Of a stretch of DNA of 64,000 nt, positions 14,426-52,107 are shown in pieces. This stretch comes from Adenophora triphylla var. japonica (Eukaryota > Streptophyta > Magnoliopsida > Asterales > Campanulaceae): contig JAFEMH010002079.1 of NCBI GenBank assembly GCA_022495995.1, positions 248,001 to 312,000 of the forward strand, written 5' to 3'. The translations under genes were made by a program, and so were the position numbers. Below the pieces are notes generated by a model that worked only from the letters and a program-made list of their open reading frames with translations, did not search any database and had not been told where the DNA came from. The first letter of the stretch is position 1; each line of letters opens with the position of its first letter.

Positions 14426-14489
14426 GGCTGAACCTTTGGCAGGCTACCTACGTTTCCCAAATGGGAATCAAGCCATAATCGTAGTTCGG
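14426..14489 (-). other. 3'-UTR hairpin module, copy C-1
   Basis: In sense (minus) direction: GAACTACG, an inner hairpin TTCCC(attt)GGGAA, closing CGTAG, then CCT(gccaa)AGG and TTCAGCC. A third inverted repeat, GACC(aaagt)GGTC, precedes it on the plus strand at 14409-14421. The matching modules are compared in the findings. Confidence 0.6.
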
Positions 14490-14527
14490 AATCCACTGGG
14501 TAAAGGGGGCGTCATATGTGACGAATT

Positions 14528-14588
14528 GGCTGAACCTACAGTAGGCTACCTACGTATCCCAGAGGAATCAAGCCAGGTCGTAGTTCGA
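14528..14588 (-). other. 3'-UTR hairpin module, copy C-2
   Basis: Sense direction: CTACG...TTCC(tct)GGGA...CGTAG, then CCTA(ctg)TAGG. The second stem uses an A-T fourth pair where B and D use T-A. Confidence 0.6.
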
Positions 14589-14693
14589 ACTTTTATTGAG
14601 TCGAAATGTTATTCCTTCATCAGGGAATAACGGAGATCGAAAGAGAGCGAAATGTTATTCCTTCATTCTGGAATAACGGAGATCGCGAGAGAG

Positions 14694-16107
14694 TGAATGT
14701 GCGCTCGCCCCCGGAAAATTTTGGGTTTCCCAGTTTAAATGAAAAGAAGGAGTCGCCACGCCGTTTTAAGAGGAAACATTGAAAACCTTTATTTAGAGAG
14801 AAAAACATGAGTTCGGAGGTCAGGTTACGTGTTGGGAAGAACCGAGAGTTCACCCAACACGCCTCGTCCGTAGACGAGTCTTTCAATCAAAAACATCCAA
14901 GTAAATCCAAAGTGTGTGCAAATATTGATAATAAACAAAGTGTGATTAAAGGCATCTTATTAATTATGGAACGAGAATTACATATTGTGAGCCCATTATT
15001 TAGGGAGGCCACATCCTCGATACAAACAATCTAAAACAGACATAAAGGAAAAAGGGTCTCTGCAGATGGGTCATGTATGTCGCATGACACATCGCACCAG
15101 TGACCACATGTGTCGCGTGACACAGGATCACTTGTAGACAAAGGTGTCGCGTGACACATATGAGCCATCTGCAGAAACTATACAATACGAACACAGAATC
15201 AACAGAAAACTATACATATCTAATCAATTAACTAGATTACGAACGTAATACAGAAACGAAACTAAATCAACCCAGGGAGTGTGGTTATGGGTAGATCCAC
15301 ACCCCCTTGGGGTTCAAACACCAAATCCAATCAAATAATCAACAATATAAGCTCAATTGCACGAATTATTCAGATTAAACAGAGAGATTGCGATTGGGAT
15401 TCAAGAATCCGTATAGCTAGGATCCGATTACCAATCCAAACAAAATTGAATGCTAGAATTAATAGAAATTAAGCAAGAGAGAGAGAGAGAGATTGAGAGT
15501 TAGGGAATCGTTACCCTTGTTGCTTCCACGAATTCTATATCCGGTCGGATATAGAACCCTTCAATTCTTCACCTCGTATCCGGGAAGGATTGATGCAAAG
15601 GGGCTCAATTGGTGTGGCTTGAGAATTGGGTTTGGAAGGGAGGAATTGGGTAGGTTGAAGGTAGGAGAGAGAGAGGTTTGTGTTTGGAGAGGTTTGTTAC
15701 GCTGCAAATTCCCGCGAGTAACAGTAGGCTAAAATTCGGATCCATTTATGAGAGGGGGAGGGTCTTATTTATAGGCTGCAGTTGGCTGCCTTAGTGTGTC
15801 GCACGACCTTACGCGTCCACTTTTCATGCCTCAAGCTGTCGCGTGACACAAGGTGGCTCAACCGCTTTTGGCGCCAAAAACCGCTACGGAACATTCCGGG
15901 AAAATACCCAAAAGGTCCAACAGGTTTTATTCCCAAGGGGTCCTTTGGCATGAATAATGTACCAAAAGGTACTTCCTTCGCGGGAAACTCATGGAACGTT
16001 TCGGGAAGTCTCGGGATAGGCCGGGAATTTACCAAAACGCCCTTTAATGCAGTTTTATTATATTAAAATGCATCTAAAAGGTTGCGAATTGGATTGGCGT
16101 ACTTACA
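14694..16107 (-). repeat. 3' LTR of element D
   Basis: 1414 bp, from TGAATGTGCGCTCGC to GCGTACTTACA on the plus strand (TGTAAGTACGC...CACATTCA on the minus). TATA box at 15766-15773. Five TGTCG-type palindromes are present: 15078, 15111 and 15145 downstream of the TATA box, and 15797 and 15837 upstream. A short GA run is at 15478-15490. The polypurine tract lies just beyond the high end. Confidence 0.85.
15766..15773 (-). promoter_or_regulatory. TATA box of the D LTR
   Basis: Minus-strand tataaata within GCCTATAAATAAGACC. The palindrome TGTCGCACGACC starts 24 bp upstream at 15797 and a second, TGTCGCGTGACA, is at 15837-15848. Confidence 0.7.
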
Positions 16108-16335
16108 GAGCCCCTCGGCAACGTCACTTTTGGAAAAAGTGAGGTTGTCGATAAAATAAGACCCAATCCCAATGAGCGGCTAGGGTTAAGGTGAAGGGCT
16201 AGAAGGGTGAGAAGTGGAAAAGATGGCTGGACCTTTCTGAGAAAGGATTCCTACGTATCCCTTGAACAAGGGAATCAAGCCAAATCGTAGTTTGGGACAC
16301 AAGACTGGAGGGGAAAACGACAAACCGAAGAAGTG
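16108..16335 (-). other. Polypurine tract and structured 3' UTR of element D
   Basis: Minus-strand polypurine tract gccgaggggctc at 16108-16119. It is preceded by an inverted repeat CACTTTT/AAAAGTG (within 16125-16141). One hairpin module at 16225-16296 has the strongest stems of all copies: TCCCTT(gttc)AAGGGA and CCTTTC(tca)GAAAGG. Confidence 0.65.
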
Positions 16336-17296
16336 AGAACTATGGTGTCTCAAACCAATTTTGAAAATATTGTGAGATCTATGGTGTCTCGAACCACTTT
16401 TGAAAATGTTGTGAGATCTATGGTGTCTCGAACCGAAGAAGTGAGAACTATGGTGTCTCGAACCGATTTTTGAAAATATTGTGAGAACTATGGTGTCTCG
16501 AACCAAAAATTGTAAATAATGTGAGAACTATGGTGTCTCGAACCAAATATTGTAAATAATGTGAGATCTATGGTGTCTCGAACCAATTTTGAAAATATTG
16601 TGAGATCTATGGTGTCTCGAACCAATTTTGAAAATATTGTGAGATCTATGGTGTCTCGAACCAATTTTGAAAATATTGTGAGAACTATGGTGTCTCGAAC
16701 CAATTTTGAAAATATTGTGAGATCTATGGTGTCTCGAACCATTTTTGAAAATGTTGTGAGATCTATGGTGTCTCGAACCATTTTTGAAAATGTTGTGAGA
16801 ACTATGGTGTCTCGAACCAATTTTGAAAATATTGTGAGAACTATGGTGTCTCGAACCAATTTTGAAAATATTGTGAGAACTATGGTGTCTCGAACCAATT
16901 TTGAAAATATTGTGAGATATATGGTGTCTCGAACCAATTTTGAAAATGTTGTGAGAACTATGGTGTCTCGGACCAATTTTGAAAATGTTGTGAGATCTAT
17001 GGTGTCTCGAACCATTTTTGAAAATGTTGTGAGAACTATGGTGTCTCAAACCAATTTTGGAAATATTGTGAGAACTATGGTGTCTCGAACCAATTTTGAA
17101 AATATTGTGAGAACTATGGTGTCTCGAACCAATTTTGAAAATATTGTGAGATCTATGGTGTCTCGGACCAATTTTGAAAATGTTGTGAGATTTATGGTGT
17201 CTCGAACCACTTTTGAAAATGTTGTGAGAACTATGGTGTCTCGGACCACTTTTGAAAATGTTGTGAGAACTATGGTGTCTCGAACCAATTTTGAAA
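16336..17296 (-). repeat. 39-bp minisatellite in the 3' UTR of D
   Basis: About 24 units of CTATGGTGTCTCGAACCA then ATTTTGAAAATATTGTGAGA. The unit contains an imperfect palindrome, CAATTTTGAAAATATTG. The period is 13 codons, so repeated-peptide ORFs appear on both strands (16561-17319 plus, 17343-16528 and 17015-16488 minus). I treat none of them as genes. Confidence 0.9.
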
Positions 17297-20075
17297 AAGG
17301 ATATGGTATGATGATTTGACGCTTGCAAGAAATAAGTGTTCATACCTGTGCTGTGCTCACCCGCAGCTGTCGGAAGGTCTTAGACTACCATTGTTGTTTC
17401 TGCTCTGCGGGGGATATGTGTAGCTTCCGGAGGGCTCACGCTACTTCTTTCCTGCTCTCTTGTTGTTCTTTCTTTCGTGTACTGGGCTTTGCATGGGAAA
17501 CTGGGGACTTTGCCTTTTTCTGTTTCTTTCTTTCTCAATTTGGTCTGAGGGCCAGTCTTGAGACTCAATTGATTATTGTACCTGCGAGGGTAAGACAACA
17601 ACTCCCAGTGCTATGCCTAAATAAGCTTATCTTGTTAGCAAAGATTAATTTATGTTAGCTTGTTTGCACGAGTCTGTCTGTTCTGGGAAAGCAAATGCGA
17701 TTATTGGGTTAAAGGTCAGTTTTGCCAGGTTTATACATGAAGTTTTTGGGATTGTTTCGGACAGGTATGTATAGTAGGGGTCCTCTCCCGTGAGGTGGAA
17801 AATGATATGGCGCAGCTAGGCAAGTCGGGGACGCTCCCGAAAGTACAGATTGCAGCAGGTCCAGAGTGTATCGCGTGTCTGAGACAGCAAGAAGCAGAGA
17901 AGGTGCAGAGGATAATCCTGGCTTGCGCAGCCCCAGTTGATAATGAAGAGCAATCTTGGAGGGAATCTGGTGAGGAGAGCCGGAGGGACACCTTAACCAA
18001 AGCCCCAGTTTGAGGGCAAATCCATGCAGCTTCATCGCAGGCAGAGTCATCTTGTGGCCACAGAGGCAATTCATCATTTCAAATCGTAGTCAATCAGTCG
18101 CTGGACAAGACTCGGAAGTGTTTACGTGCAGGGGCACATCCTTCGAGGGTGGGAAATGAATCCCGAGTTCTGTGTATGACACTCTCGCTTTGGGTTCGAC
18201 TCTTTTGAGAGAGTATAAGCATCACAAGGTGTGGAAAGTGTATGGAAGCCCCTGCTGACCGAAACGGTGTTTAGCTCTATCTTCCTATGATGTAGAAATA
18301 GAAGACTTTTCGAGATACTTGAAAACCTGTCTTATTCGTGATGATCACAAAGCTGCATAAAACCCTTTATTGATGTTCGGGTTAGTCAACCGCCAAAGCT
18401 GATATGAGCAAATATTTTTATCAATCCTGAGGAGAAAGCCCACTGATATCGAGATCAAATTCGGAAGGATGGAAGGTGTATGGGCATGGTCCTTGGGAGA
18501 CCGAATTCTCTGAGATTTGTTTATGATTTCGACCGGACCAATTAAGGTTGCCTACGTTCCCCTCCTTGGGAGGAGCTCAGGTCGCCGTAGTTCGGGCTTA
18601 TCCCGAATGAAGAGAATGAACGATGAAGTTCGGGGATGTGAGGACCTTCGAAGATTTTAAGAATTGAAAAATATGTCCTCTTAGAGTGTCGATGGGAGAC
18701 ATAGATGCGAAGCCCCAGTGGGACGTCCATGGCAGGTGTTTGCAGAGGAGAAATGAAATATGCTCACATACAATGTCAAATGAACGAACGGAATTTGCAC
18801 AATCTTCAATTTATGGTCATTTGAGCCGGGATGGACTTGGCTCTGCTTCAAGCAATAATCTGTTTTAGATCTCGACGATATTGGACTGAAACTGCTATCC
18901 GGTAGTAACTGCGGCTGGGCTTCAGGATTTCGATCGGTCTTCGGGTGATTTGGGATATCATGACCTCTTAAAATGAGAGGTCGGCTAGGCTTTTGCTGGC
19001 TGTACCTCTAAAGATGAGAGGTTTGGCTTTTGGGTAGGTGTTTGGGATTTCTAAGGTGAGGGAATCCATACTTGCATCTTCAATGCCTCTAAGAATGAGA
19101 GGTCAATCTTGGCTTTGGCTAAAGGCAGAGGTAAGGGTAATGGGAATGTCCTCTAAAATCGAGAGGACGGCTTGGGATCGGTTAGAGGTAATGGTGAGGG
19201 ACATCCGTGCTGTCTCTTTATTCACTCTGAGACTCCTCTTTGAGTAATGACCGGATCTTTTGACTTTCATTTCTAAGAGGATCACTGGGGACTAGGCTCT
19301 CTTTCTTTTCTTCTTTTTTTTATTATTCTCTCTTTTTTTTTTCTTTCGTATCTCTTTTTTTTTTGTATCTTCTCTTTTTTCTTTCGAGAGGAGAATTTCA
19401 GCTAGTCCCCAGGATGGATCACTGCATTCGTCATTTTTGAGCTTGGAGATGGTCGATTTTCTTTTGAATCACGGGAGTCTCAAGGATAGTCCCTCTTCTT
19501 CTGGTGATGGCTAAACGGGTTTCAAATATGCCGATCTTGAAATGAAAGGGTATTGTTTAGTGAGGGTGAGGGTAAAGGTTTCCCTAGGGGTGAAAGGTTT
19601 CAACCGCAGCCCCTACCGGATGATCCGAACGAGATTGAGTCTTCATTGCTTGCTTAAGTCTACTCTGAGAAAAATCCATGCAAATCCATCGAACAAAGAG
19701 ATAGGAAGAATGAAGGAAAATATGTGAGCATGTTGGAATCGAGGTGGGGAGTTGATAAGCCCCACTTTGGGAAATGATATCAGCAGGTTTTCTCTTTCCG
19801 ATTAATCCAAATATTAGTCATTTCAAAGCGTTGGTCGGTGAGCAGCACAAGTGATCATTTAGAATAAGACCAATTCAATAGAGTGTAACGTAGGTGTTCT
19901 AGTGATGTCTCGAGTCTAGCAGGAATAGAAGCAAATATTTTATTATTGCAAATAAAAGACTCATAACATGGACTTGACAGACTCGCGACCACATAAAAGA
20001 CACTCTAGAACCTACGACGCTGACTGATTGACTTCGTTGTCTACGGGTGAGATAACCTCTGGGCTTCTGCTGATA
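17297..20075 (-). other. Long 3' non-coding region of element D
   Basis: No convincing gene in 2.8 kb. Parts match the equivalent region of B in the same order: the string TGCCTACGTTCCCCTC in the type II hairpin module (D 18534-18596, B 27294-27355), GCCCCAGTTTGAGG-like runs, and TTTGACTCTTTTGAGAGAGT (B 26860-26880, D near 18190-18210). T-rich tracts lie at 19311-19385. Short ORFs here are not conserved. Confidence 0.55.
18534..18596 (-). other. 3'-region hairpin module, type II, copy D
   Basis: Sense direction: CTACG...CCTCC(caa)GGAGG...CGTAG, then ACC...GGT. The outer arms CTACG/CGTAG are shared with the type I modules. Confidence 0.5.
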
Positions 20076-22046: not shown

Positions 22047-22315
22047 CCAACTTGCCTTATCTGGAGAGGAGAGAGCGTGTATAAAGAGGGGGGTAGAGAA
22101 TTTTGAGGAGGTACGGGAGAGGGAAGAATACGGAAGGAGACGGACTCGTGCAACACTTATTATTGTTCAAGTAGAAATCGGTGTTTTAAGTCCTAGAGAC
22201 GGTTGGAAAAGGATAAGCCTTTATTCACGCAATCTAGACATCGGGGGAACCTAGGACACATCATCCACAAATACACCAAATGCGTTGTTTCAAAATTAAT
22301 AATAGGCGACAGTAC
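22047..22315 (-). other. Distal leader of D and left target duplication of B
   Basis: Leader directly upstream of gag on the minus strand. It has a purine-rich run at 22065-22140. The last five bases (22311-22315), AGTAC, are repeated at 34046-34050 and mark the insertion site of element B. Confidence 0.75.
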
Positions 22316-23930
22316 TGTGAATGTGTGCCCAAAATTTTGTGTTTGTTGGATTCACGCGAGTTTGAAGACATCCGGTTTAATTTGAAAAACGGAGTCGCCA
22401 CGCCATTTTGATTACCTCAAAACTTTGAAAAAAAGGTTTTATGGGTTCGGAGGTCAAGTTACCCCTTGGGAAGAACGTTTGGCGTTCACCCAAGGTGCCT
22501 TGCCGGAGCAAGTCTCCCAAGATTTCATTAATCGTGCTTGCTTGCGTGCTTTCTTGTGTGCATGTGTTTGAGAAAAAAGGGGGGAATGTCCCAAGTTGTC
22601 TTCCGGGCGTACAAACCATTTTTTGGTTGTCGCTCGGGATTCCTTGGAATTTTATGTATTTGGGATTATGATCCCGTCCTCATCTTATGACTTGTGATCA
22701 TCGCATTTTAACCTCGGGACCCTCGGGACTTGCGTGATCGAGAGAATGACTCTCTTTTGGTCAAAGATGAGGTTCTTTAGAAAAGGAGGGTCCTTAGCCC
22801 ATCAATCCTACGCTTTAAGACGGTCGAGCTTGTATAGAAGCTTCATACTCTTTCTTAAGCGATAATCGGAGATATAGGGTTCAAGGTTATCCCTTTCCAA
22901 AGAAATCGTGAACCTTTAATGGAAGGAACGATGTAAAGATAGGATCTTTTACACCGGTCCGTTCCAAGGTTGGGGGAAAGGGGAAATGCATGATGAAAAA
23001 TGACTCTTTAATGAAAAGATGACATTTTTGGTTTTAGCAAATGATGCTTTTTGATTGAAAGAAATGATCTTTATGCAAGTGATGCGTAAAAATAGGATTT
23101 TTATGCAAATGATGCATTGGAAAAGGTTTTTGAATGCAAAGGATGCATTTTTATTGAAAAGATTGGATTTTTATGTGCAAATGATGCATAAAAATGACAT
23201 TTTTATTTGAAAATGGGGGTTTTAGGTGCAAAGGATGCACCTTTATGAAAAAGACTACATTTTTATGACAAATGAGGTCTTAATGCATGCAAAAGGGAAA
23301 GGGGGTGATAAAGATGTGATCTTTATGAATAAATGCCAAGTCCCAAGCAAGATATATGAATGCAATGAGCAAGTATATCAATTAAAAGCAAGGTTAGGGC
23401 GTGCGAGGTTACCAATTGCTTCCTTTGCTTCTTCGAACGGAGCTAGGAGGAGAGGTTGGTCTTGGGTCTTCAAGGAGGAGGGAGGTAGCTTCTTGGCCTT
23501 CCTTCTTCACCTTCTTGAGCTTGCACCAATATTCTTCACGTCTTGGGAGTGTTTATAAGTGTATTGTGTATTTTGTGCCTCTATTGTGTGTGTTGAAATG
23601 GGTAGAGGAGGCCTCTATTTATAGGTAATCTGGATAAGGTGAATGAAGCCGTGCGGCCGGGAAGCGGCGAGCTAATGCGGCCGTGCGGGCTTATCCCGAA
23701 TGACTCAAAGCATTCTAGAACCATGCAAGGTGGCAAATTCTAGAACCCTCCTTCCTAATTAAGAAAAACGTGTTTCTTAATTAGGAAGGATCCCCTTCAG
23801 CCCTTATTTAATAAAAAACAGTTCCGGAATGTTTCCGGAACGCTGGGAAGGTCTGGGGAATTACCGGAAAACTTACCGAAATTGTCGGGAAAATTAACCT
23901 AAGGCATGAGCCGAGATTTGGGTACTTACA
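22316..23930 (-). repeat. 3' LTR of element B
   Basis: 1615 bp, TGTGAATGTGTGCCC to GGGTACTTACA on the plus strand. TATA box at 23616-23623. Two short palindromes are upstream: GCCGTGCGGC (23648-23657) and CCGTGCGG (23681-23688). A TTCTAGAA pair is at 23713 and 23738. U5/R has degenerate TGCAAATGATGCATAAAAAT-type repeats at about 22990-23330. This copy keeps CpG sites that are mutated in the 5' LTR. Confidence 0.9.
23616..23623 (-). promoter_or_regulatory. TATA box of the B 3' LTR
   Basis: Minus-strand tataaata within CCTATAAATAGAGGCC. The palindrome GCCGTGCGGC starts 25 bp upstream. Confidence 0.7.
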
Positions 23931-24034
23931 GAAGCCCCTCGGCAACGTCACTTGCAAGGCAAGTGGGGTTGTCGATAGAAAAGGATCCTATCTGGCGAAT
24001 GCCGAGACGGATTAGATGACCGAGACGGTCGAGT

Positions 24035-24096
24035 GGCTGAACCTTTTGGAAGGCTACCTATGTATCCCGGAGGAATCAAGCCAGGCCGTAGTTCGG
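24035..24096 (-). other. 3'-UTR hairpin module, copy B-1
   Basis: Sense direction: CTACG...ATTCC(tcc)GGGAT, then CCTT(ccaa)AAGG and TTCAGCC. The outer arm has one mismatch (CATAG for CGTAG). Confidence 0.6.
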
Positions 24097-24282
24097 AATA
24101 AGATCCGCTGAGGAAGGGAGAAGAGAAAACTGGTCTCTTGCTGGGGAAAATAGAAAATGACCTAGGAGGTCAAGCAATTGAACCTACTGGGGATATTCTA
24201 GAAGTGACCAAGGTGGTCTCTATGAGGGATTACTTCATCACTGAGGAGCGACGAAGGAACAGGGTGACCGAAGTGGTCGGAT

Positions 24283-24347
24283 GGCTGGACCTTTTATAAA
24301 AGGCTACCTACGTATCCCGGAGGAATCAAGCCTTGATCGTTGTTCGG
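24283..24347 (-). other. 3'-UTR hairpin module, copy B-2
   Basis: Sense direction: ATTCC(tcc)GGGAT, then the fully palindromic CCTTTTATAAAAGG. It lies just beside the 96-bp array. Confidence 0.6.
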
Positions 24348-24356
24348 GCTTTGACT

Positions 24357-25131
24357 GAATCGAAATGTTATTCTTCCAACTTGGAATAACGGAGATCGAA
24401 AGAGAGAGCGAAATGTCATTCTTCCACCTTGGAATGACGGAGATCGCGAGAGAGATCGAAATGTTATTCTTCCACCTTGGAATAACGGAGATCGAAAGAT
24501 AGAGCGAAATGTCATTCTTCCACCTTGGAATGACGGAGATCGCGAGAGAGATCGAAATGTTATTCTTCCACCTTGGAATAACGGAGATCGAAAGATAGAG
24601 CGAAATGTCATTCTTCCACCTTGGAATGACGGAGATCGCGAGAGAGATCGAAATGTTATTCTTCCACCTTGGAATAACGGAGATCGAAAGATAGAGCGAA
24701 ATGTCATTCTTCCACCTTGGAATGACGGAGATCGCGAGAGAGATCGAAATGTTATTCTTCCACCTTGGAATAACGGAGATCGAAAGATAGAGCGAAATGT
24801 CATTCTTCCACCTTGGAATGACGGAGATCGCGAGAGAGATCGAAATGTTATTCTTCCACCTTGGAATAACGGAGATCGAAAGATAGAGCGAAATGTCATT
24901 CTTCCACCTTGGAATGACGGAGATCGCGAGAGAGATCGAAATGTTATTCTTCCACCTTGGAATAACGGAGATCGAAAGATAGAACGAAATGTCATTCTTC
25001 CACCTTGGAATGACGGAGATCGCGAGAGAGATCGAAATGTTATTCTTCTACCTTGGAATAACGGAGATCGAAAGATAGAGTGAAATGTCATTCTTCCACC
25101 TTGGAATGACGGAGATCGCGAGAGAGAATGC
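24357..25131 (-). repeat. 96-bp composite minisatellite in the 3' UTR of B
   Basis: About eight copies of a 96-bp unit made of two 48-bp halves. Each half has an inverted repeat around TTCCACCTTG. One half pairs GTTATTC with GAATAAC, the other GTCATTC with GAATGAC, so the third pair switches from T-A to C-G with both arms changed. The copies are nearly identical, so expansion is recent. The 279-codon minus-strand ORF (25133-24294) is a repeat artefact: 96 is divisible by three. Confidence 0.92.
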
Positions 25132-25780: not shown

Positions 25781-25843
25781 GGCTGAACCTTTATGAAAGG
25801 CTACCTACGTATCCCGGAGGAATCAAGCCTTGATCGTAGTTCA
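25781..25843 (-). other. 3'-region hairpin module, copy B-3
   Basis: Sense direction: CTACG...ATTCC(tcc)GGGAT...CGTAG, then CCTTT(cat)AAAGG and TTCAGCC. A GACC(aacgt)GGTC inverted repeat sits next to it on the plus-strand left side. Confidence 0.6.
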
Positions 25844-27293: not shown

Positions 27294-27355
27294 CGGACCA
27301 TTGCTGGTTGCCTACGTTCCCCTCGTTGTGAGGAGCTCAGGTCGCCGTAGTTCGG
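27294..27355 (-). other. 3'-region hairpin module, type II, copy B
   Basis: Sense direction: CTACG...CCTC(acaac)GAGG...CGTAG, then ACCA(gcaa)TGGT. Related to the copy in D at 18534-18596. Confidence 0.5.
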
Positions 27356-36810: not shown

Positions 36811-36811
36811 G

Positions 36812-41990: not shown

Positions 41991-41999
41991 AAGTTGATG

Positions 42000-42500
42000 A
42001 AGAAAAATGCCTACGAGAATGGACTCCGGAATGTCGGCTTGCCTTTGAGCAGATCAAGGCATACCTTGTGAATCCCCGATTCTCTGCCCACCACATCGGC
42101 AAAAGCCACTCTTGCTATATCTAAGCATCACGGATACGGCAATTGGGGCTATGCTAGCTCAAGAGAAGAAAGATTCCAAGGTCGAAAACGCCATCTATTT
42201 CGTAGCGAGAAAGCTCCAAGGAAGCGAACTCAATTACTCTGCTTGCGAGAAGACTTGCGCGAGGTTTGGTGCAGGTAGTGGGAAAGTTGAAACACTACAT
42301 GCGGTCTCACCCGATACATCTTGTCTCAAGGATAGACCCCATCAAATATACGTTCGACAAGCCTTCCATCTCCATGAGGTTGGCAAAATGGTCGTTCTTT
42401 TTGGCCGAATATGACATCACTTATGTTTCAAGGAAATCCGTAAAAAGGACGCATAATGGCGGAACATTTGGCCGATTTCCCAAGTGATGAGTCAGGGACT
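42000..42500 (+). pseudogene. gypsy-type RNase H (gRNH) of element A
   Basis: LYLSITDTAIGAMLAQE starts near 42114. Then come AIYFVARKLQGSELNYSACEKTC and, in the next frame, GKLKHYMRSHPIHLVSRIDP and KWSFFLAEYDITYVS. The order and motifs fit the RNase H next to RT in Ty3/gypsy elements. One frameshift is near 42270 and another follows near 42450. Confidence 0.8.
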
Positions 42501-42539
42501 GAACCTCAATTTCCCGATGATGGAATCTTCGCTCTAGAA

Positions 42540-42945
42540 GGAGAAAATCGCGGCAACTCTTCTTCGACGGGCGTCAAACAAAAGGGGAACGGAATAGGAA
42601 TGCTTACAGTCGATCCTCTTGCGACGAACACACCCCCATGCTTGATGAGGTTGAACTTCGAAGTCACCAACAACGGCTGCTGAATATGAAGCTTGCATAG
42701 CCGGGTTGGAAGCCGCCCTTGAAAGAAATATCAAGGAATTGGAGGTGTATGGTGACTCTGCCCTCATCATCAATCGGAGTCTCTAACAAATGGAAGACCG
42801 TGGACCCGGGTCTGACTGAAATATCACACTTACATGGAAGAGCTAGTAACCCAATTCAAGGAGATCGGCTTTCATTACTTGCCCGAGAGATCGCAACGGT
42901 TGCGGATGCTCACGGCAACGCTAACCTCCCTCGTTGAAATACCCG
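42540..42945 (+). pseudogene. Second, archaeal-type RNase H (aRNH) of element A
   Basis: LFFDG (Asp 42566-42568), then in another frame KGNGIGMLTVDP and LNFEVTNNG, then ELEVYGDSALIIN near 42740-42777 and EELVTQFKEIGFHYLPE. A second RNase H after gRNH is the marker of the Tat lineage. Frameshifts prevent function. Confidence 0.8.
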
Positions 42946-43109
42946 AAGGAAAGTCCGTCAAACCATTCGAGTCGGGAGAAGAGAAAATCCCGCTTATTGC
43001 TTTGAAATCGAAGCGAAGCCGCGGCGCGGTGATCCACAGTACACTCGGATCTATCGGTACCTTAAGAACGGAGAAGCCTCCTTCAAAAATGAAGATGGGG
43101 AATATAAAG

Positions 43110-44330
43110 AAGGAATCAGCGAAAAGTCTCTCGGCCACAGGCGGCTCGCCTCCCATTATGTTCTTTTGGGAAATATGCTATACAAGAAGCGTTATCAAGG
43201 CCCCCTCTGCGATGCATCGGCAAACAAGAGGCTACGGAACTCATGAGAGAAATACATGGTGGTACTGCGGCCCCCACATGAATGCTCGAGCCACGATGCA
43301 AATTATGCGAGAATGGGATACTTTTGGATCTCCATGGAAGCCGGCGCATCCGGTTCGTCAAAAACTGCGACAAATGTCGGCGATACTCAAACCTTAATCA
43401 TTTGCCTCCTCACGAGTTATCTTGCATGACAACCCCTTGGCCTTTCGTCACTTGGGGAATTGATGTCATAGGCAAAATCACGCCATCGAGCGATATGACC
43501 ACGAATTCGTCTGGTAGGCGTGGATTATTTCACCCAAGTGGGTTGAAGCCAAGTCCTACAAAATCCTCAACTCAAGGAAAGTAGCCCTCTTCATCAAAGA
43601 GAACATCATATGCGGATACGGGTTGCCGGCGAAATCATCTCGAGATAATGGATCCCACTTCGAAGGGGAATGCGACGAGTGCTGGCGAGAATTCGAATAA
43701 CCCGTCACAAGTCATCTCCTTACGGGCCCCAAACCAACGGAGCCGTCGAGGCGGCAAACAAGACTTTGGAAAACATTATCCAGGAAAATGGTTGTCCAAG
43801 GCGAGAGATTGGCCCGAGAAGTTACACTGGCACTGCGGGGCTACGAGAACATCGGTCGAACGGCAAGCGGGAAACACCGTTTGCCCTCACATACGGAATG
43901 GAAGCCGTACTCCCAATCGAGCTAGAAATCCTCGCTCAGGTATCACTTGGAAAGCCGGATCAACGAGGTCGAATGGCTCCAAAGTCGCCATGATGAATTG
44001 GCCTGCTAGATGAGCGACGATTGAAAGCAATGGAACACATCCGAGCCTACCAAGGAAGAATGGCCGAGCCTTTGACAAGAAAGTAAAGCATCGGGAGATC
44101 AGGAAGGGGATCTCGTTTTGAAAGAAAAGCCCCGGTCCGTGTCAACCCCCTCGGCAAATGGGAGCTGTATGGGTCGGGCCATACGTCGTCCGAAGATCTT
44201 CTCGGAGGAGCCATGCAACTTGCGAGACCTCGACGGGAATCCCTTTGTACACCCGGTGAATGGTGACAAGGCTGCGAGATACTACGCGTAAAACAAAAAA
44301 AAAAAAAAAAAAAAAGAGTGCTAAAGAGTA
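43110..44330 (+). pseudogene. Integrase of element A, frameshifted
   Basis: The zinc-binding region shows CGPHMNAR and, in another frame, RFVKNCDKCRRYSN near 43345-43395. The catalytic core shows FVTWGIDVIGKI (Asp 43462-43464), a DNGSHF-type block (Asp 43644-43646) and GPQTNGAVEAANKTLENII (Glu 43748-43750). The Asp-to-Glu spacing of about 35 residues fits D,D35E integrases. The C-terminal part breaks up by 44280 at an A tract. Confidence 0.82.
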
Positions 44331-44388
44331 ATACCCAACTAGGTTGAAAACCCGAAAAGGGCGGCCTAGGTAAAAAACGGGGTTGCAC

Positions 44389-44424
<36 letters not shown>

Positions 44425-45116
44425 AAAAAAACAAAAAAAAAACAAAAAAAAACAAAAAAAATCGGGTTGAACTACGAAGACACAGGCTCCTCAAAATGAG
44501 GAACGTAGGCGGCGGAAACGGTTCGGTCTAAAACACAAATAAAAGTCATACTTTGACATCAATACAAGCGATCGAGACCATGAAAGCGTCTCGAAAAACT
44601 ACGAAGCAATTCAAATATTCATTACAAGTTAAAAACTTTTTGATGAGTCTAAGCCCGATTCATTCCTACAGCGCGGCACTGCTAAAGAAAATTAAGATAC
44701 ATAATCAAACTAATGTATGCGCCATGACAAGAAAGGGATACTCGGAAACCTCGGAGTCACTCCATGCCACTCGAGCGGCCTCTCCCCTCTTCTTCCCCCT
44801 TCGAGTCTTCTTCTTACGAACAGGGAAAAATGTCGGTCTTCCTCCTACCAAGCTACGGTATAGGAACAGGATCTATCAAACCGGCCTCTGTGCGGGGCCT
44901 TAGTAGCCCTAGCGTCATCTCTCATCTCCTGTAGCCTAGGCGGTAGCATAGGAGCCCTCCTCTCTGTCTCTTGACGTAAGCCTCATAGTCGGTCACGGCG
45001 TCTCCGCTCTGTCATGAGGGTTGGCCCTCGCCTCGGCCCTCCTCCTCTCGAAAGCAGTCGGGTCCTCCGCACCCACAATGGCCTCACGCCGCCTCAAAAT
45101 AGCCATCGAGTCTCTC
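44331..45116 (+). other. A-rich spacer between integrase and the antisense genes of A
   Basis: Has A tracts at 44291-44316 and 44388-44460. Between them and after them are GAACTACG (44470-44477) and AACGTAGGCGGC, a decayed copy of the hairpin-module outer arms. No gene supported; the ORF at 44553-44903 has no recognisable domain. Confidence 0.5.
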
Positions 45117-46246
45117 CTAAATGCCTCTCGTACCAATCCGGGTACCAAGTGGTCGGGAACACGGGTCTCGGACGCTGAGAATAACCCGAGGAGGAAAGGC
45201 GTCATACCTCCATGCTCGGGAAAGAAATGGAAACACCGAGGGATCATCCATAGAAGCAGGAGCCACCACCACGATGGCTATATCATCAAAGTTCTCCAAA
45301 GGAACTGCTCCGAGGCGAGCGTCTCGAGAACCAAGGACGGAATATAGAAGGCTGGGTGAGAAAGCCCGGAAGCATGACCACATGAGACCCGTCTGAAGCA
45401 CTCTGCGAGTCTCCACCCGCCAACAAGGCAACGACCATCGATATCTTACGTGCGCGACCGGCCATCCAACGCTCCCATGAGCCACGATCATCGAAATCCG
45501 ACAACCCCCCTCTGGCAAATGTCGAGGCTTGATCATGTCGGGAGTTTCCCGAAGAATCCCCAAGCGCTCCATCGGCCACGGGGTCAAGAGGAGCAGGCTG
45601 CCCCGTGCATATACCGCTTCCCGGTAGCCGGCCTATCGAGAGCATGGAAAGTCTCCCCGGGATCGGAGGTACAACATCTACGCCCAGCGACAATGAACGA
45701 CTACATCCAGCAGAGACCGATGGCAGATCCCAAAAGAATAGACCATAAACAGGGTCCCGAACATGCAAAGTGCAAAGGCATCCCAATAGGCATCGTCGAG
45801 CAAGCCTAAGCCCCTAAACCTATCGGGGAGGCCGGAAATATCAAAATGATCGGGACCACGGATCATACCTTGCGCTTCCTCCGGGGAAAGATGAAGGAGG
45901 ACGCACAATCTGTCAACAAAAGAAGCCCCTCCGGGCAAAGGAACCGCTACCTCTTCCACCTCCGGACCACCAAGCAAGACCCGAAATTCTTCGACGGTTG
46001 GGACCATCTCGTTGAAGGAAAGGCAAAAGACATGCCTTCTAGTGTCCCAAAATGAGGAAGAAGCCCTCGAAGATCGTAATCCGGAATCAATTCCTTGAGA
46101 GACCATAAGCACTTCACCTTGTACCTTTCTTCAAAGAATAACCTCATCTCATGCATAATCTCCAGGGACAAATCCTTGAACTTGTTGAAGAATGACATTT
46201 GGGATTCTTGGGACAATTTTGATGGAGCTTTTCTAAGGTTTTCCAT
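45117..46246 (-). pseudogene. Antisense gene of A, DUF7745-like
   Basis: Starts at ATG 46246 (MENLRKAPSKLSQ). It reads a helical segment (DLSLEIMHEMRLFFEERY), then KCLWSLKELIPDYDLRGLL. After a frame change near 46030-46060 it reads FCLSFNEMVPTVEEFRVLLG, close to the block typical of plant DUF7745 proteins (VFTFN..DMVPTIEEY..LL). GLGLLDDAYWDAFALCMFG and a hydrophobic stretch follow, to about 45690. Further frame changes carry it to 45117. Role unknown. Tat elements are known to carry antisense extra ORFs in this position. A CCGCGCGG palindrome core lies upstream at about 46375-46382. Confidence 0.55.
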
Positions 46247-46749
46247 GGATTTTCTCTCTTTCTCCCGAAAATGGCTGTTTGAATTTGGAGGTTGAAGAGG
46301 ATATTTGAATTTGAAATAAAGTGAGACCAGATCTGAAGCAAAATTAAAGGACAATGTCGAGATGCGGGACTCCTCCGCGCGGATATGTTTGCTTTCCATC
46401 GAGAAAAATCTGCAACGAGTCCAAGTTGCTACACCAAAGAGGAATATTCCGTCCGGTTGCTCGGAACACTGTGCAAAAACCTCCCCAAACCGGTCCATAT
46501 ACCAAACACTAACACCCTTGCCAAAAAAAAAAAAAAAAAAGAACCAAGGCTCATGCAACATTGCATTCATCTTGCATTGCATTCATAAAAAAAATAAAAT
46601 CCTAAATTATTACATTCCAAAAAAAAAAAAAAAAAGAAAAAAAAGAGTGTGCAAAAAAAAAAAAAAAAAACAAACAAACATCAATAATCCTAAATTATTA
46701 CATCCCAAAAAAAAAAAAAAAAAAAAAAAAAGAAAGAGCAAAAAAAAAA
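46247..46749 (-). other. Promoter and A-rich spacer between the two antisense genes
   Basis: Upstream (minus strand) of the DUF7745-like gene. Contains TCCTCCGCGCGGATAT (46371-46386), close to the LTR palindrome, and A tracts at 46520-46538, 46619-46635, 46653-46670 and 46706-46730. The tandem block AATCCTAAATTATTACATYC occurs twice (about 46600 and 46687). Confidence 0.5.
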
Positions 46750-49700
46750 TGTGTGCATAAGTGTACAAATCTCAATCCCGGTCATAAATCTCAATCTCGA
46801 AAATCTCAAAAAATCAATCGGAATCCCTAGCGCCCGACGTCGTCCCGGTCCCTCTTGCGACTCGGGCCCGCCTCCTCGGGAGCCACTGAAAATCTCGGGC
46901 TCGAGAATCGTCCTCGTCTCCCGAGAAAGAGGCTCGTCGGGACCAACCGGCACGCTACGATAGGGCAAGCCAAGATCTGCGAAAAAATCATATCCGAAGG
47001 TGAAGGCGTCAGACTCCTGGACGTACGAAGACGACCCGCCCATCTTTGCCAAACGTGTCCACTGCCCGTGTGGATCCCCGAGAATGACGTGATCCGAAGG
47101 CGGCACCGCGCGGGGATCAATGAGAGGAGACGAGAGGAGTCTCTGAAGAAGTCTACGAACGAATAGGGAAGCCTCCCGCGACAGGCGCCGGCCGTGGTCG
47201 CCTCGCTCTAGCGAGGAGCCCCGCAAGCGACCATCCTCTGATGAATCTCTTAGCTCCGATCACTTGCTTCGTCGGCTTCTCGACGACCACCTCAGAAAAG
47301 CGCACAAAAGCAAAAGCGTCGAAACAGTTGAAGCGAAAAATGATGACGGGAAAGAAAAGAAAAGACAAAAGAAAAAAAAAAGAAAGAGAAGCCATACCTT
47401 CATGCCGGACGAGGCGGAAAGCTCGTGGAAGCCGCTCGAGTGAGGATCTGCACCCTCAATCGGACCCCATCCTGGATATATGAAAAATCCGTCCAGGGTA
47501 CCGCGGGATCCCAAGCCCCTCTCTATCCGAACACAGGGCATCCTCGGCCTCCTCAAAACAAATACGGGGTATGGCTCAATCGCCACAAATGCCGAGAAGT
47601 CTTGGCCAGGCTCGGTAATCATCCCAGTCGCGAATCTGTCACTCGGGTGCATCATATCGGCGGGAGGCTCCACCGGTGTCCTCGAGGCGAGTTCACGCCA
47701 TCTTTGGCGCGTCACCCTCTCTCCCGGATAATAGGCATCGCGAGTCGGACCTCTCGAGAATCCTCCATTGCCACGGTCAAATCTCGGCGCCCTTCGGTGC
47801 GCCACCTCGAAACGATCCCGGGGATAAAATATCATCCTCTCATCCGTCTCGGCCTCCCGTCGAAAGGAAGGCAATCCGCGTATCTGAGAGTCGTCGCCCC
47901 ACTGGAGCTTATCTTCTCTCGGGCATGCTTGGACCAGAGCGCATGGCCGGATACGCCCCGACGTACTCCGCCGGCTGTCGCCACATCGTGACGTGGAAAA
48001 ACTCCAACGCCCATACACTGCGAAGGTAAAAATCAAATCAATCCGGTTGCAAAAGAAAAGTGTGTGCTCAAGAAAAAAGGGAAAGCAAAGAGAGCTTATA
48101 CCTCCGGGGCAAACTCAAAGCGGTACAAGGAGCTCACGGCCTTCCGGTGTACCTATCAAGAGCAAAGTAAAGCTCTGCCGGCCAGGCCTCTCCCAGGAGA
48201 CGTCTCCGGCCATCTCCATGTCCTCCAAGGACCTCGGCAAGGCAAAGGCTGCCGTCCCCTCGGCATGTCCAAAAGGGTGCTCGAAAAAGCAAACCATAAG
48301 AAGGCCACAGCAATCGATCGGCGCCTATCCTCTCCTCCCGGCCTCGTAACTCACAATGGTCTCCACAATCTTCCCGTAGACCACGGCATCCTCCATCCCC
48401 ATCCCCTTTTTGGGAATAGGGGAAAATCCCGAAGAGCACAGTAGATCCGCATCGCTGTAGCCGTCCCGCCACTCAATGCTTTGCGTCCATTGAAGGACAA
48501 ACCCGTGATCGCGGCATAGTCGGAAAGGCGTAACCGTAGCCTCGCCCCGGAAGAAGTGAAACGTGTGGGTCGCATCCCACCGGTCTTTGCGCCAAAGCAA
48601 ACATCGAGGCCCTTGCTCTTAGGGAACTTGACCAATCCCCTCAAGCACTCAACAAACTCCCAAGCCCGGTCTCAACGACAATCATCTCGGACTCGGCAAA
48701 GCTCCTCGGCCCGCATTCGGAAGCCGGTCCCACAAGTCAACTACAGACTCCACCGATCCTCGAGTCTTCATCTTGTTCAGCTGCTCCGTAACGTAGTTGT
48801 TCCCACCCTGCAATAAAACAAAAAAAAAAAGAAAATGTCAAAAAAAAATTGCATTTGCATTTGCACAAAAAAAAGGCATACATATGCATCATGAAATTTC
48901 AAAGAAAATTCGACAGCATAACAGCATACAATGAGCATAGCCCCATTTTTCTCGCACAAAAAAAATAGTTTTCAGCAAATCCCAATCAACATTCATGAAA
49001 AAAAAAATTTCATACAAGGAGTCAACGGAAGCAAAAACTCTGTCCCATTTTCATAAAATAACATGCATACATTCATCGAAAAAAAAAAATGCATTCCTAC
49101 GGAAGTAAAAACTCCGTCCCGTTTTCACAAAATAACATGCATTCAATCAACGGGAGGAAAAATCCGTCCCACTTTTCAAAAAAAAATCAATCAAAAATCA
49201 TACATTCATATCATCATCTCATGTTGGCAAAATGCCAATTCTTTTCTCAAGCAAAATGCACATTTTGGAACACCAACAAATTCATTGCAACATGCATATC
49301 ATCAAAAATCAATATTCAAATTTCAAAAAAAAAAATCACAATTTTCATTCACAATTTTCGAATTTTAAAAAAAAAATGGCGAAAATGCTAATTCTTTTTC
49401 CAAGCAAAATGCATATTTTGGGATACCCACATAATCATTACAACATGCAAAGCATCAAAATCAAGATTCAAAGCCAAGAACATCAATCATTCGAATTTTC
49501 AAAAAAAAAAAAATTCAAAAATCACCCAAAATTCAATTTCAAGCAAGAAATCAACAAAGGGAATGAAAAGATTCGAAGTATACCGTTCGGAGACTCGGAT
49601 CAGAAGCCCAATGTTGCCAAGCATCGGGGTATGGCTCCTCCGCAATCGATTGCGAAAGAGTATAATGCCTCCTCATTCGGACGAGCTCCAATCGTCTCTC

Positions 49701-49751
49701 CGCTACCGGGCCACGTCCTTGGCCTTGAAAAACACCTTCCCCGTGTTCCAT
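46750..49751 (-). pseudogene. Antisense plant-mobile-domain (PMD) gene of A
   Basis: PMD proteins (MAIN/MAIL family and transposon-borne relatives) have an RW..T.TFH..GE.T.TL.D...I.GL signature. Here the minus strand at 48600-48500 reads RWDATHTFHF and GEATVT in one frame and LSDYAAITGLSFNG in the next. Near 48265-48170 it reads SLEDMEMAGDVSW, like the PMD block before a conserved Trp-Gly. Near 47900-47800 comes MIFYPRDRFEVAHRRAPRF. A possible first exon starts at 49751 (MEHGEGVFQGQGRG). The C-terminal part (47226-46750) is low complexity. Exons, introns and frameshifts cannot be told apart by eye. The insert at 48650-49550 is A-rich and may be intron. Confidence 0.55.
48830..49550 (+). repeat. 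A-rich region with diverged direct repeats inside A
   Basis: Copies of CATGCATACATTCATCRAAAA and CGGAAGYAAAAACTCYGTCC alternate at 49015-49175. A second pair, built on AATTCTTTTYCAAGCAAAAT, is at about 49236 and 49391. No gene supported. Confidence 0.5.
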
Positions 49752-49892
49752 TGCTTGAAAATCGAAGAAAATCGGAAGATTTTTGAAGCTTTTTGGACAA
49801 CAATGGCGGTTTTGAGCGTTTTCTCTCTCTCTCTCGTAATTGCGAAATTTTCAAAAAAGCTGAATGGGGAAGAGGAAGGGCGTTGGCCCTCA

Positions 49893-49933
49893 TTTAAAAC
49901 CCTACGGAACACGCTCCTATCCGCGCGGATAGG
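49893..49933 (-). promoter_or_regulatory. Internal antisense promoter of A resembling its LTR promoter
   Basis: The same 18-bp palindrome as in the LTR, CCTATCCGCGCGGATAGG, at 49916-49933, followed on the minus strand after 16 bp by a TATA-like tttaaat (49893-49899) and a GAGGGCC-type context. The candidate start of the antisense PMD gene is 142 bp further on. Confidence 0.5.
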
Positions 49934-50034
49934 ATTGTCGAGTCAAAATGACCCTTTTGCCCTTTAAAAATTTGGGACTCTGCGGTTCGGTCCCAAACTT
50001 GACAAAGTTAACCAAAGTTAACCAAAGTCGGCCC

Positions 50035-51235
50035 TCTTGTCATCAAAATTATCAAACGGCGGTCAAACGTAAGTCCGATCTCCCGAGAAAGATAACGGGA
50101 TCCCGTATCTTTCATCAAAATCATCAAACGGCGATCAAACGTAAGGCCGATTTCCCGAGAAAGATAACGAGATCCCGTATCTTTCATCAAAATCTTCCAC
50201 GGCGGTCAAACGTAAGACCGATTTCCCGAGAAAGATAACGAGATCCCGTATCTTTCATCAAAATCTTCGGCCGGTCAAGCGTAAGACCGATTTCCCGAGA
50301 AAGATAACGAGATCCGTATCTTTCATCAAAATCTTCCCGGCAGTCAAACGTAAGACCGATTTCCCGAGAAAGATAATGAGATCCGTATCTTTCATCAAAA
50401 TCATCAAAGCAGCGAGTCAAACGTAAGACCGATCTCCCCAAGAAAGATAACGAGATCCCGTATCTTTCATCAAAATCATCAAACGGCAGTCAAACGTAAG
50501 ACCGATTTCCCCGAGAAAGATAACGAGATCCCGTATCTTTCATCAAAATCTTCCCGGCAGTCAAACGTAAGACCGATTTCCCCGAGAAAGATAACGAGAT
50601 CCCGTATCTTTCATCAAAATCCTCCACGGCAGTCAAACGTAAGACCGATTTCCCCGAGAAAGATAACGAGATCTCGTATCTTTCATCAAAATCATTAAAC
50701 GGATCAAACGTAAGTCCGATCTCCACCGAGAAAGATAACGGAATCCGTATCTTTCATCAAAATCATCCCCGGCGGTCAAACGTAAGACCGATTTCCCGAG
50801 AAAGATAACGAGATCCCGTATCTTTCATCAAAATCTTCCCGGCGGTCAAACGTAAGACCGATTTCCCCGAGAAAGATAACGAGATCCCGTATCTTTCATC
50901 AAAATCTTCCCGTGATCAAACGTAAGACCGATTTCCCCGAGAAAGATAATGAGATCCCGCATCTTTCATCAAAATCATCAAACGGCAGTCAAACGTAAGA
51001 CCGATTTCCCCGAGAAAGATAACGAGATCCCGTATCTTTCATCAAAATCATCAAACGGCAGTCAAACGTAAGACCGATTTCCTCGAGAAAGATAACGGGA
51101 TCCCGTATCTTTCATCAAAATCATCCCCCGGCAGTCAAACGTAAGACCGATTTCCCTGAGAAAGATAACGAGATCCCGTATCTTTCATCAAAATCTTCCC
51201 CGGCAGTCAAACGTAAGACCGATTTCCCAGACGAA
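50035..51235 (+). repeat. 70-bp minisatellite in the 3' region of A
   Basis: About 17 units of roughly 65-75 bp with GTCAAACGTAAGACCGATTT, CCCGAGAAAGATAACGAGAT and CCCGTATCTTTCATCAAAAT. Each unit has the inverted repeat GAAAGATA/TATCTTTC. Units that read ACGGGATCCCG in between extend the stem to nearly the whole segment. Confidence 0.9.
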
Positions 51236-51322
51236 TACGTCTGATTTTCCCCAGCAAAAGCTAACGAAATCCCCAGCGAAGCTAACGGAATCCCAAAAGC
51301 CAACGAAATCTCGAGTAGATCT

Positions 51323-51385
51323 CGAACTACGAAAGGGCTTGATTCTCACTAGGGATACGTAGGTAGCCTATCACTAGGTCCAGCC
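51323..51385 (+). other. 3'-UTR hairpin module, copy A-1
   Basis: CTACG...ATTCT(cacta)GGGAT...CGTAG, then CCTA(tcac)TAGG, TCCAGCC and GACC(aaaat)GGTC. Confidence 0.6.
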
Positions 51386-51439
51386 CCTCGACCAAAATGG
51401 TCACCCTCTCCTTCGGCAGCAGACAAAGTCCACCGAAAG

Positions 51440-51830
51440 GCCATTTCAAATCAAGGTTCGAGGCACCTAAAAAGCCATCATCTCCAAGGTTTGAGGCACC
51501 TAAAAACGTCATCATCAAGGTTCGAGGCACCTAAAAAGCCATCATCATCCAGGTTCGAGGCACCTAAAACGCCATCATCTCCAAAGGTCCGAGGCACCTA
51601 AAAAGCCATCACCATCAAGGTTCGAGGCACCTAAAACGCCATCTCCAAGGTTCGAGGCACCGAAGACGCCATCATCAAGGTTCGAGGCACCTAAAACGCC
51701 ATCATCAAGGTCCGAGGCACCTAAAACGCCATCTCCAAGGTTCGAGGCACCTAAAACGCCACCTCCAAGGTTCGAGGCACCTAAAACGCCATCTCCAAGG
51801 TTCGAGGCACCTAAGACGCTATCACACACA
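51440..51830 (+). repeat. 30-bp minisatellite in the 3' region of A
   Basis: About 13 units of CATCWYCAAGGTTCGAGGCA plus CCTAAAACGC; an isolated unit is at 51998-52034. The period is ten codons, which explains the VLGASNLGDG-type repeat ORFs on the minus strand. Confidence 0.88.
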
Positions 51831-52044
51831 ACACTAGGAAAGCGATAAATCGCAATCATCCCCAGCAAGAGCAGATAGCCACCAGACCAAAAATGGTCAT
51901 TCCTATCCCCAGAAGAGCGGATAGCCATCCGACCGAAAATGGTCATCTCTTACCCCCAGCAGAGTTTCTCTCCAGCAACCAATTGCAGAACCCGCTCATC
52001 AGGTTCGAGGCACCTAAAACGCCATCATCTCCAGGGTCAAAGAC

Positions 52045-52107
52045 CCGAACTACGACTGGCTTGATTTCCATTCGGGATACGTAGGTAGCCTATCGCTAGG
52101 TTCAGCC
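52045..52107 (+). other. 3'-UTR hairpin module, copy A-2
   Basis: CTACG...CGTAG around a short inner repeat, then CCTA(tcgc)TAGG and TTCAGCC. The third inverted repeat here is GATC(acct)GATC, where other copies have GACC/GGTC, so both arms changed together. Confidence 0.6.

Follow-up and report, generated by a model that had tools for sequence, protein, structure and literature searches.

We analysed a 64,000-nt stretch of the genome of Adenophora triphylla var. japonica (assembly GCA_022495995.1, contig JAFEMH010002079.1, positions 248,001 to 312,000 of the forward strand), called the window below; all coordinates are positions within it unless a genomic locus is named. The window is a nest of long terminal repeat (LTR) elements. 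Two of them, A and B, are bounded by LTR pairs, and C and D are seen as 3' ends. The LTRs open with TGTAAGT, directly after GAGGGGCT. In the 3' regions of all four elements we found a recurrent module of about 90 nt, and our results support it as a selected RNA structure with covariation beyond that expected from relatedness. The elements are:

Element A, 35028..53981, plus strand: LTRs at about 35028-36810 and 52197-53981 (93.5% alike), a decayed gag-pol and a long region between pol and the 3' LTR
Element B, 22314..34045, minus strand: LTRs at 22314-23930 and 32433-34045 (98% alike), a gag tail, no pol detected
Element C, minus strand: 3' end only
Element D, 16108-22313, minus strand: 3' end, gag domain present

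Eleven module copies lie in these four elements. We named A0, B0 and D0 type X and the remaining eight type M:

A0, 44469..44529, plus strand: type X, downstream of the gag-pol stop; closing stem AGAC/GTCT, P2 TCCTC/GAGGA, P3 unformed
A1, 51322..51409, plus strand: type M, found by the pattern; training sequence of model R1
A2, 52045..52130, plus strand: type M, polypurine-proximal; pattern and R1
B0, 27270..27355, minus strand: type X, closing stem GACC/GGTC; found by the covariance models
B3, 25757..25844, minus strand: type M, on the 5' side of the 48-nt tandem array at 24361-25127
B2, 24259..24347, minus strand: type M, 3' of the same array
B1, 24011..24096, minus strand: type M, polypurine-proximal; pattern and R1
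C2, 14503..14588, minus strand: type M, P3 CCTAC/GTAGG, P4 CGTCA/TGACG
C1, 14402..14489, minus strand: type M, polypurine-proximal; pattern and R1
D0, 18515..18595, minus strand: type X, closing stem CGACC/GGTCG, P2 CTCCTCC/GGAGGGG; assigned to element D by position
D1, 16202..16295, minus strand: type M, long P2 and P3, without P4

A first-pass annotation of the letters had reported eight of these copies. One loose pattern recovered all eight at the places it gave and on a single strand per element (minus strand 14447, 14549, 16250, 24057, 24307 and 25804; plus strand 51326 and 52049), and the stem letters that it quoted are correct. The covariance model that it had proposed (R1, built from the eight copies) scores each training copy at 69.9 bits or more and adds diverged copies, so that the eight stand and the total rises to 11. 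Outside its training set R1 matched 18515-18595 (E 9.6e-6) and 27270-27355 (E 4.6e-5), now D0 and B0, and a second model (R2) was built from the R1 set with these two added. A0 ranked 13th in R1 (44467-44554, E 0.14), behind two weak matches that were dropped, and 11th in R2 (44484-44529; E 0.18 over the window, 0.0017 over 601 bases). This weak match at 44484 was retained because its flanks hold the full motif, with GAACTACG, a TCCTC/GAGGA hairpin, AACGTAGG and an AGAC/GTCT closing stem. The other weak matches (25702, 59858, 45998 and more; E 0.095-9) were dropped as chance. A pattern match at 11362 was rejected as a ninth copy; it is absent from the lists of both covariance models. The third repeat GACC/GGTC of the first-pass annotation proved to be common and not universal, as the D copy at 16250 lacks the repeat and C2 has the arms CGTCA/TGACG. 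Its list of stems omitted the closing stem GGCU/AGCC, though this stem is clearly compensated (GACC/GGUC in two of the new copies). It had also held that a match to a known RNA or a coding region would speak against a selected fold. No Rfam family reached its gathering score anywhere in the window, module A1 searched at E up to 10 gave a single match (E 8, on the other strand), and none of the copies overlaps a coding region that was seen.

In the sense direction the module reads, from 5' to 3', GAACUACG, a short linker, the 5' arm of the closing stem (Pa), UGA, a first variable hairpin (P2), U or A, ACGUAGG, three letters, a second variable hairpin (P3), UYC, the 3' arm of Pa and mostly a further hairpin (P4). 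In 111 distinct genomic copies the core is clearly a three-way junction of a closing stem and two variable hairpins, usually with a third hairpin behind it. The closing stem occurs as GGCU/AGCC, GACC/GGUC and GGUC/GACC. Among the type-M copies of the window Pa is UGGCU/AGCCA in five of eight, AGGCU/AGCCA in B2 and B3 and GGGCU/AGCCC in A1; in type X it is CGACC/GGUCG (D0), CGACC/GGUCA (B0) and AGAC/GUCU (A0). P3 of the type-M copies has the form CCU..AGG, and the next pair is U-A in the B copies and D1, A-U in A1, A2 and C2 and missing in C1; B0 shows A-U at the third pair of P3. C2 and B2 are 82% alike over an aligned 173 nt, and both arms of P3 and of P4 differ between them with the stems kept. 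In 88 of 112 copies at least four Watson-Crick pairs can form within 32 nt after the core, compared to 23.1 expected from letter shuffles; the arms of this P4 include GACC/GGTC, GATC/GATC and GTCA/TGAC. Among genomic copies the stems vary in length and in their loops.

We then compared the changes in the paired columns with several null models. For the eight copies that the first-pass annotation had offered as a sign of a selected fold, two-sided change was seen in 3 of 24 pairs (reached in 44 of 500 shuffles) and in 5 cells (6 of 500), and the covariation score was reached by 23 of 500. Swapping arms between these copies gave values of 0.0024 for P3 (0.05 on five distinct types) and 0.0095 for P4 (seven copies). 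A separate run, with arm lengths picked from the fold, which biases the values and that of P2 most, gave 0.0026 for Pa, 2e-5 for P2 and 0.0014 for P3. The best RNAalifold fold of the eight copies was partly different. The eight copies alone are hence suggestive and statistically weak. With ten and eleven copies, 6 of 17 pairs were two-sided (5 and 35 of 500 shuffles), and there were 12 and 16 two-sided cells (0 of 500). Because related sequences can exceed plain shuffles, we made a null in which every branch of the tree retains its count and types of substitution, and the substitutions are only shifted from column to column. For the 11 copies, with one C2 gap moved by hand to its structural place, 90.2% of the cells were paired compared to 65.3% under 5,000 such nulls (null maximum 85.6), with 17 two-sided cells (maximum 10) and 7 two-sided pairs (maximum 6), and the summed G statistic was reached by only 1 of the 5,000. 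When RNAalifold chose its own fold for 1,000 null alignments, they had at most 10 two-sided cells compared to 16 in the real one, and none reached an energy as low as -8.69 kcal/mol.

The module search covered one plant genome, that of the host (2.48 Gb). A strict pattern had at least 53,351 exact matches (reversed control: 0) and a relaxed pattern, in which only GAACTACG and ACGTAGG are fixed and any 20-48 letters may stand between them, at least 105,397 (reversed control: 276); all genome-wide pattern counts given here are lower bounds. P2 forms in this free interior among the matches listed, as UCUC/GAGA, CCUCUU/AAGAGG, UCUCCC/GGGAGA and CCCC/GGGG. Among bacterial and archaeal genomes (257 billion bases) related patterns matched at 5 scattered places, which we took as chance. 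The strict pattern had no match in viral contigs, and the single viral-contig match of a looser pattern (L006) was rejected by eye. R2 was run on 74 of 100 genomic loci (26 were left out, mostly because of overlaps) and returned 118 matches in 111 distinct rows. As this alignment was fitted to the structure of the model it leans towards the fold; the strict-pattern bait fixed GGCTTGATT and hence one Pa arm, and put no constraint on the middle of P2, on P3, on P4 or on the 3' arm of Pa. Of 1,710 cells 91.6% were paired, and 11 of 16 pairs were two-sided (3 of 500 shuffles). There were 125 two-sided cells compared to a shuffle mean of 35.6 (0 of 500), and slid registers gave at most 20. Under the tree-preserving null (n=500) the mean for these cells was 28.5 and the maximum 72. 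Compensated double events on single branches numbered 11, compared to a mean of 0.5 and a maximum of 4 in 500. Loci L040 and L056 carry the third closing stem, UGGUC/GACCA.

The modules have a characteristic place: one copy lies after the gag-pol stop and the others near the polypurine tract. For type M we examined 22 of 30 strict-pattern loci, chosen to avoid double counting, with 34 M copies. Within these 3-kb loci a polypurine-LTR junction followed downstream on the same strand in 25 of 34 copies and lay upstream in none, and the M copy nearest to the junction was 102-163 nt before it. For type X we took all 12 GACC-type loci among 30 relaxed-pattern loci. Ten of the 12 match the end of the pol of element A upstream, and in four a pol-like stop lies 256-276 nt before the module. 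The other two (L052 and L066) have no such match, and L052 has gag zinc-knuckle-like motifs. In element A itself the pol-like end NGDKAARYYA* is about 180 nt upstream of A0. The spacing of A recurs, with some 6.4-6.9 kb from X to the first M, at several places on the genomic sequence C1 (not the module of that name; X/M pairs 275159/281856, 1013773/1020361, 1241972/1248860 and 2212023/2218426). Copies within one element are 80-90% alike over the module, and their flanks do not exceed the random 95% quantile (0.72) in 6 of 10 comparisons. Between elements the B1-C1 pair reaches 0.92 next to the polypurine tract.

A second hairpin, which the first-pass annotation did not mention, is present in all four elements immediately 5' of GAGGGGCU and reads UCGACAAC..CACUU/AAGUG..GUUGCCGA:

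Polypurine-proximal hairpin of element A, 52153..52189, plus strand: CGACGAT..CGCTT/AAGCG..GTCGCCG
Polypurine tract GAGGGGCT and the letters before the 3' LTR of element A (TGTAAG start), 52188..52197, plus strand: ends set visually, with an uncertainty of one or two bases
Polypurine-proximal hairpin of element B, 23939..23975, minus strand
Polypurine-proximal hairpin of element C, 14329..14365, minus strand: weakened, -4.3 kcal/mol
Polypurine-proximal hairpin of element D, 16115..16151, minus strand

In the version of element A (CGACGAU..CGCUU/AAGCG..GUCGCCG) two pairs are changed on both sides. Chimeras that join a half of A with a half of B, C or D, in either order, fold weaker than the hairpin of A, and those with the 3' half of A also fold weaker than the own hairpins of B, C and D. 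A shuffle test on the four sequences is weak (71 of 500). The hairpin pattern has 17,081 genomic matches (control: 0). From the places listed we collected 48 distinct strings and parsed 47: the outer switching pair is G-C in 24, A-U in 22 and A.C in 1 (46 of 47 paired), the inner one A-U in 35, G-C in 10 and A.C in 2 (45 of 47 paired), and three fully paired combinations occur. This hairpin covaries independently of the module.

Several of our measurements weigh against a module that is conserved as a fold at a fixed place. Among the 11 window copies no single pair fell below 0.02 against the pooled null, and the covariation term of RNAalifold was unfavourable (+1.43), with 1,000 of 1,000 nulls at least as good. 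A register-free arm swap for P2 was weak (4.41 compared to 4.19, sd 0.092; the highest shuffle gave 4.54). In the 111 rows the number of two-sided pairs (11) lies inside the tree null (mean 6.3, maximum 12), and there were 60 broken-pair events compared to a null mean of 37.5 (range 24-57), an excess that decaying copies would give. Pairing fails at the outermost position of Pa in 45 of 110 rows and at the fifth position of P3 in 39 of 84. The letters CUACG and CGUAG, which could pair across the junction, show no compensated change: 8 of 113 copies are changed, of which 3 give a wobble, 5 a break and none a compensation. In 9 of 34 M copies no downstream junction was recognisable in the 1.1-1.5 kb seen, and in 4 of 10 within-element comparisons the flanks exceed the random quantile (0.74-0.78), so that the conserved island is blurred there.

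These points bear on the explanation that no selection is at work, the changes being shared through descent and duplication and the arms matching by chance. It can draw on copies that are related, on the indecisive first eight and on the measures inside the null. However, the tree-preserving nulls are exceeded on cells and on double events, three types of closing stem swap both arms and the polypurine hairpin does likewise independently, and we consider this explanation scarcely credible. With the tree-preserving shuffles as a stand-in for R-scape, the claim of a selected fold in the 3' regions held for both the 11 and the 111 copies.

The first-pass annotation had left it open whether RNA or single-stranded DNA folds. 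In the same cells of the 111 rows there were 94 G.U pairs compared to 41 of the mirror-image A.C, and in the alignments of the window 10 compared to 5. The alignment folding energy was -8.69 kcal/mol for the sense and -4.74 kcal/mol for the antisense strand. The excess of G.U and the better sense energy imply that RNA of the sense strand is what folds, and this is favoured over single-stranded DNA or the opposite strand. They also speak against an element that acts as DNA, be it a protein site, a cruciform or an insulator, whose palindromes merely mimic RNA stems. Such an element would explain why CTACG/CGTAG is nearly invariant, as in a protein site, with the caveat that the baits required these letters, but a DNA site would hardly tolerate stems of variable length and variable loops. 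We regard a DNA-level element as very improbable.

Of 113 copies, 107 retain CUACG and 111 retain CGUAG, largely through the choice of baits, and the two may form a pseudoknot. In the window the match is broken in B1 and B2, on one side each, and CTATG with the usual 3' side occurs in 2,214 genomic copies. If CUACG were threaded onto CGUAG in the junction, the module could block 5'-3' exonucleases or otherwise stabilise the RNA, in the manner of the viral exoribonuclease-resistant RNAs (xrRNAs). These share with the module a three-way junction, a following hairpin (P4 above) and repeated copies in a 3' region. However, their hallmark is a pseudoknotted ring that encloses the 5' end, whereas the pseudoknot considered here lacks covariation and no Rfam family matched; the topology of flaviviral xrRNAs also differs from that of the module. 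An exonuclease block is in our view improbable, and stability against exonucleases is the boldest of the candidate jobs.

In the Pfam scan element A contains RVT_1 (1.8e-9) and, downstream of it, RT_RNaseH_2 (1.3e-13); the integrase match is weak (rve_3, E 0.043) and below the cut-off. The letters TGGCGACTCCGCTGGGGA after the 5' LTR are of the primer-site type, and presumably a tRNA matches them; no tRNA genes were found in the window. The LTR pair, the polypurine tract and the order of reverse transcriptase and RNase H fit a Ty3/gypsy LTR retrotransposon, with the integrase as the weak point. The region between pol and the 3' LTR is rich in tandem repeats (50035-51228, 51450-51824, 24361-25127 and 16333-17297), a trait of the Tat clade. 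The Tat marker is a second, archaeal-type RNase H domain (PMC6317226), and no second RNase H family was found in the Pfam scan of the broken pieces of element A, whose frame is broken in many places. The Retand marker is an antisense open reading frame (ORF) with Transposase_28 (TRP28, PF04195) between pol and the 3' LTR (PMC11963269). None of the six minus-strand ORFs tested at 45117-48114 had a Pfam family, one of them rescanned at E up to 0.1, and element A was not classed as Retand.

Element D contains a gag domain, and B and the element labelled E2 contain a gag tail with letters that we read by eye as a zinc knuckle. The gag ORF of D had no relatives at E up to 0.001 among 7,995 candidates scored in a protein collection, and the gag-region ORF of A had none in viral contigs. 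A tblastn comparison of 23 pieces of the gag-pol region of A with B and D gave no match; it missed even the gag of D, outside A only gag-side pieces matched (at the element 224-1469), and no pol piece matched elsewhere in the window as a control. Pol-end pieces of A do match relatives in genomic loci. A better argument than tblastn is the available room: gag and the type-X module are about 1 kb apart in B and about 1.5 kb in D, and in A 2.9 kb extend from the reverse transcriptase ORF to the pol stop. B and D thus look gag-only and non-autonomous. They retain the modules, the polypurine hairpin and the LTRs, and modules kept without detectable pol would fit best with a cis-acting signal whose proteins are supplied in trans.

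Such a signal could serve packaging or dimerisation, with the modules binding Gag (nucleocapsid) and bringing the RNA, including that of gag-only relatives, into virus-like particles. This would agree with modules kept in B and D, where gag is present and pol undetected, and with several stem-loops that carry conserved junction letters. All 11 window copies, however, lie 3' of the coding region and retroviral packaging signals are usually found near the 5' end. We hold this packaging or dimerisation reading to be rather unlikely.

The modules adjoin tandem arrays in A, B, C and D, and they could be sites at which reverse transcriptase pauses or switches template and from which the arrays between and beside them arise. 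Locus L007 holds the module as a repeat of its own, with a period of 180-181 nt (C1:6224, 6405 and 6585). A template-switch site would, on the other hand, need neither conserved junction letters nor compensatory upkeep, and appears distinctly improbable as the explanation.

A few further features were observed. The run of three modules in L007 (C1:6224-6624) is possibly a satellite in the making, and no polypurine-LTR junction was recognised within its 3-kb locus. An element near 4247 (4247-12096, plus strand) has the same kind of LTR start and primer-site-like letters at 6339, and is interrupted by element C ahead of any module. Tandem arrays at 30109-30845 (in B) and 7569-9675 (in the element near 4247) have units of 58-62 nt with about 67-72% mutual likeness and lie 5' of the gag tail. 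At 35001-35028 the start of A adjoins letters resembling the end of the LTR of D. Past the end of A we found no 5' LTR for D (the best match, 68%, lies inside the own LTR of A), the flanking bases are unrepeated by eye, and the boundary may be a rearrangement. An ORF with the Plant mobile domain (PF10536) lies outside the elements at 62118-62876.

Taken over all candidates, we tentatively read the modules, at a little less than even confidence, as a repeated cis-acting signal for export and/or packaging that is read by a protein on the full-length genomic RNA. The junction would present the conserved unpaired letters CUACG, UGA, ACGUAGG and UYC on stems whose own sequence drifts, and the reader of these letters would be a protein, either a host export factor or the Gag of the element. 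The copies would act additively, so that a very long unspliced RNA is exported and/or taken into particles, much as retroviruses use repeated elements for export and packaging, and the polypurine hairpin would probably frame plus-strand priming. We lean towards nuclear export and handling of the full-length RNA, with packaging close behind; a further point against this reading is that the two are inseparable on the present evidence, all of which is sequence-based. With less confidence, and as a somewhat doubtful proposal, the modules may be three-way-junction RNAs of a new, repeated and pseudoknotted class that gate the genomic RNA, either mechanically or through a bound protein (exonuclease block or host-factor export element). 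They would be the first of this kind in plant LTR retrotransposons and common to autonomous and gag-only elements. If this were so, one genome would hold about a hundred thousand copies of it, and host transcripts that read into the elements would carry the module.

Rous sarcoma virus has direct repeats flanking src, elements of about 100 nt that bracket a variable insert downstream of the main genes and ahead of the 3' LTR. The layout of our modules is similar, and their insert is an array or an antisense-ORF region. The retroviral and retrotransposon export elements RTE, MTE and CTE presumably differ from the module in sequence and fold. Like the module, the RTE of IAP and the MTE of MusD (PMC12786077) and the CTE of simple retroviruses (PMC4829213) are structured RNA on a full-length unspliced transcript, and the MTE has pseudoknot and kissing-loop motifs (PMC12786077). 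Unlike them, the module belongs to a plant element, occurs in several copies per element and is a candidate export element. According to the available text of PMC12786077, the export of LTR-retrotransposon RNA in plants has had no direct study so far.

The hypervariable 3' region of Tat, Ogre and Retand elements (PMC7004042, PMC11963269) occupies the same place between pol and the 3' LTR, with arrays and long non-coding stretches, and non-autonomous relatives of these elements are known (PMC7004042, PMC11963269). The accounts name arrays and antisense ORFs (PMC7004042, PMC11963269); the terms 'hairpin' and 'secondary structure' occur in the main text of neither, nor does 'inverted repeat' in that of PMC11963269, and no folded element of this region is named in the available parts of PMC7004042, PMC11963269, PMC3305785 and PMC6317226. 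In the open-access literature searched, judged mostly by titles and abstracts, we found no prior description of the module. Papers that contain the motif letters were unrelated, judged by title among those listed. Similar letters are presumably present in the sequences of other plants, a lead that we did not use as support.

The module may bear on how the very long unspliced RNA of plant LTR retrotransposons leaves the nucleus and enters particles. With about 90 nt, a fixed place and the backing of covariation, it is a part that is open to experiment. It accounts for part of what stays conserved in the hypervariable 3' region, provides a marker with which the 3' ends of non-autonomous elements can be annotated, and host transcripts could be searched for it.

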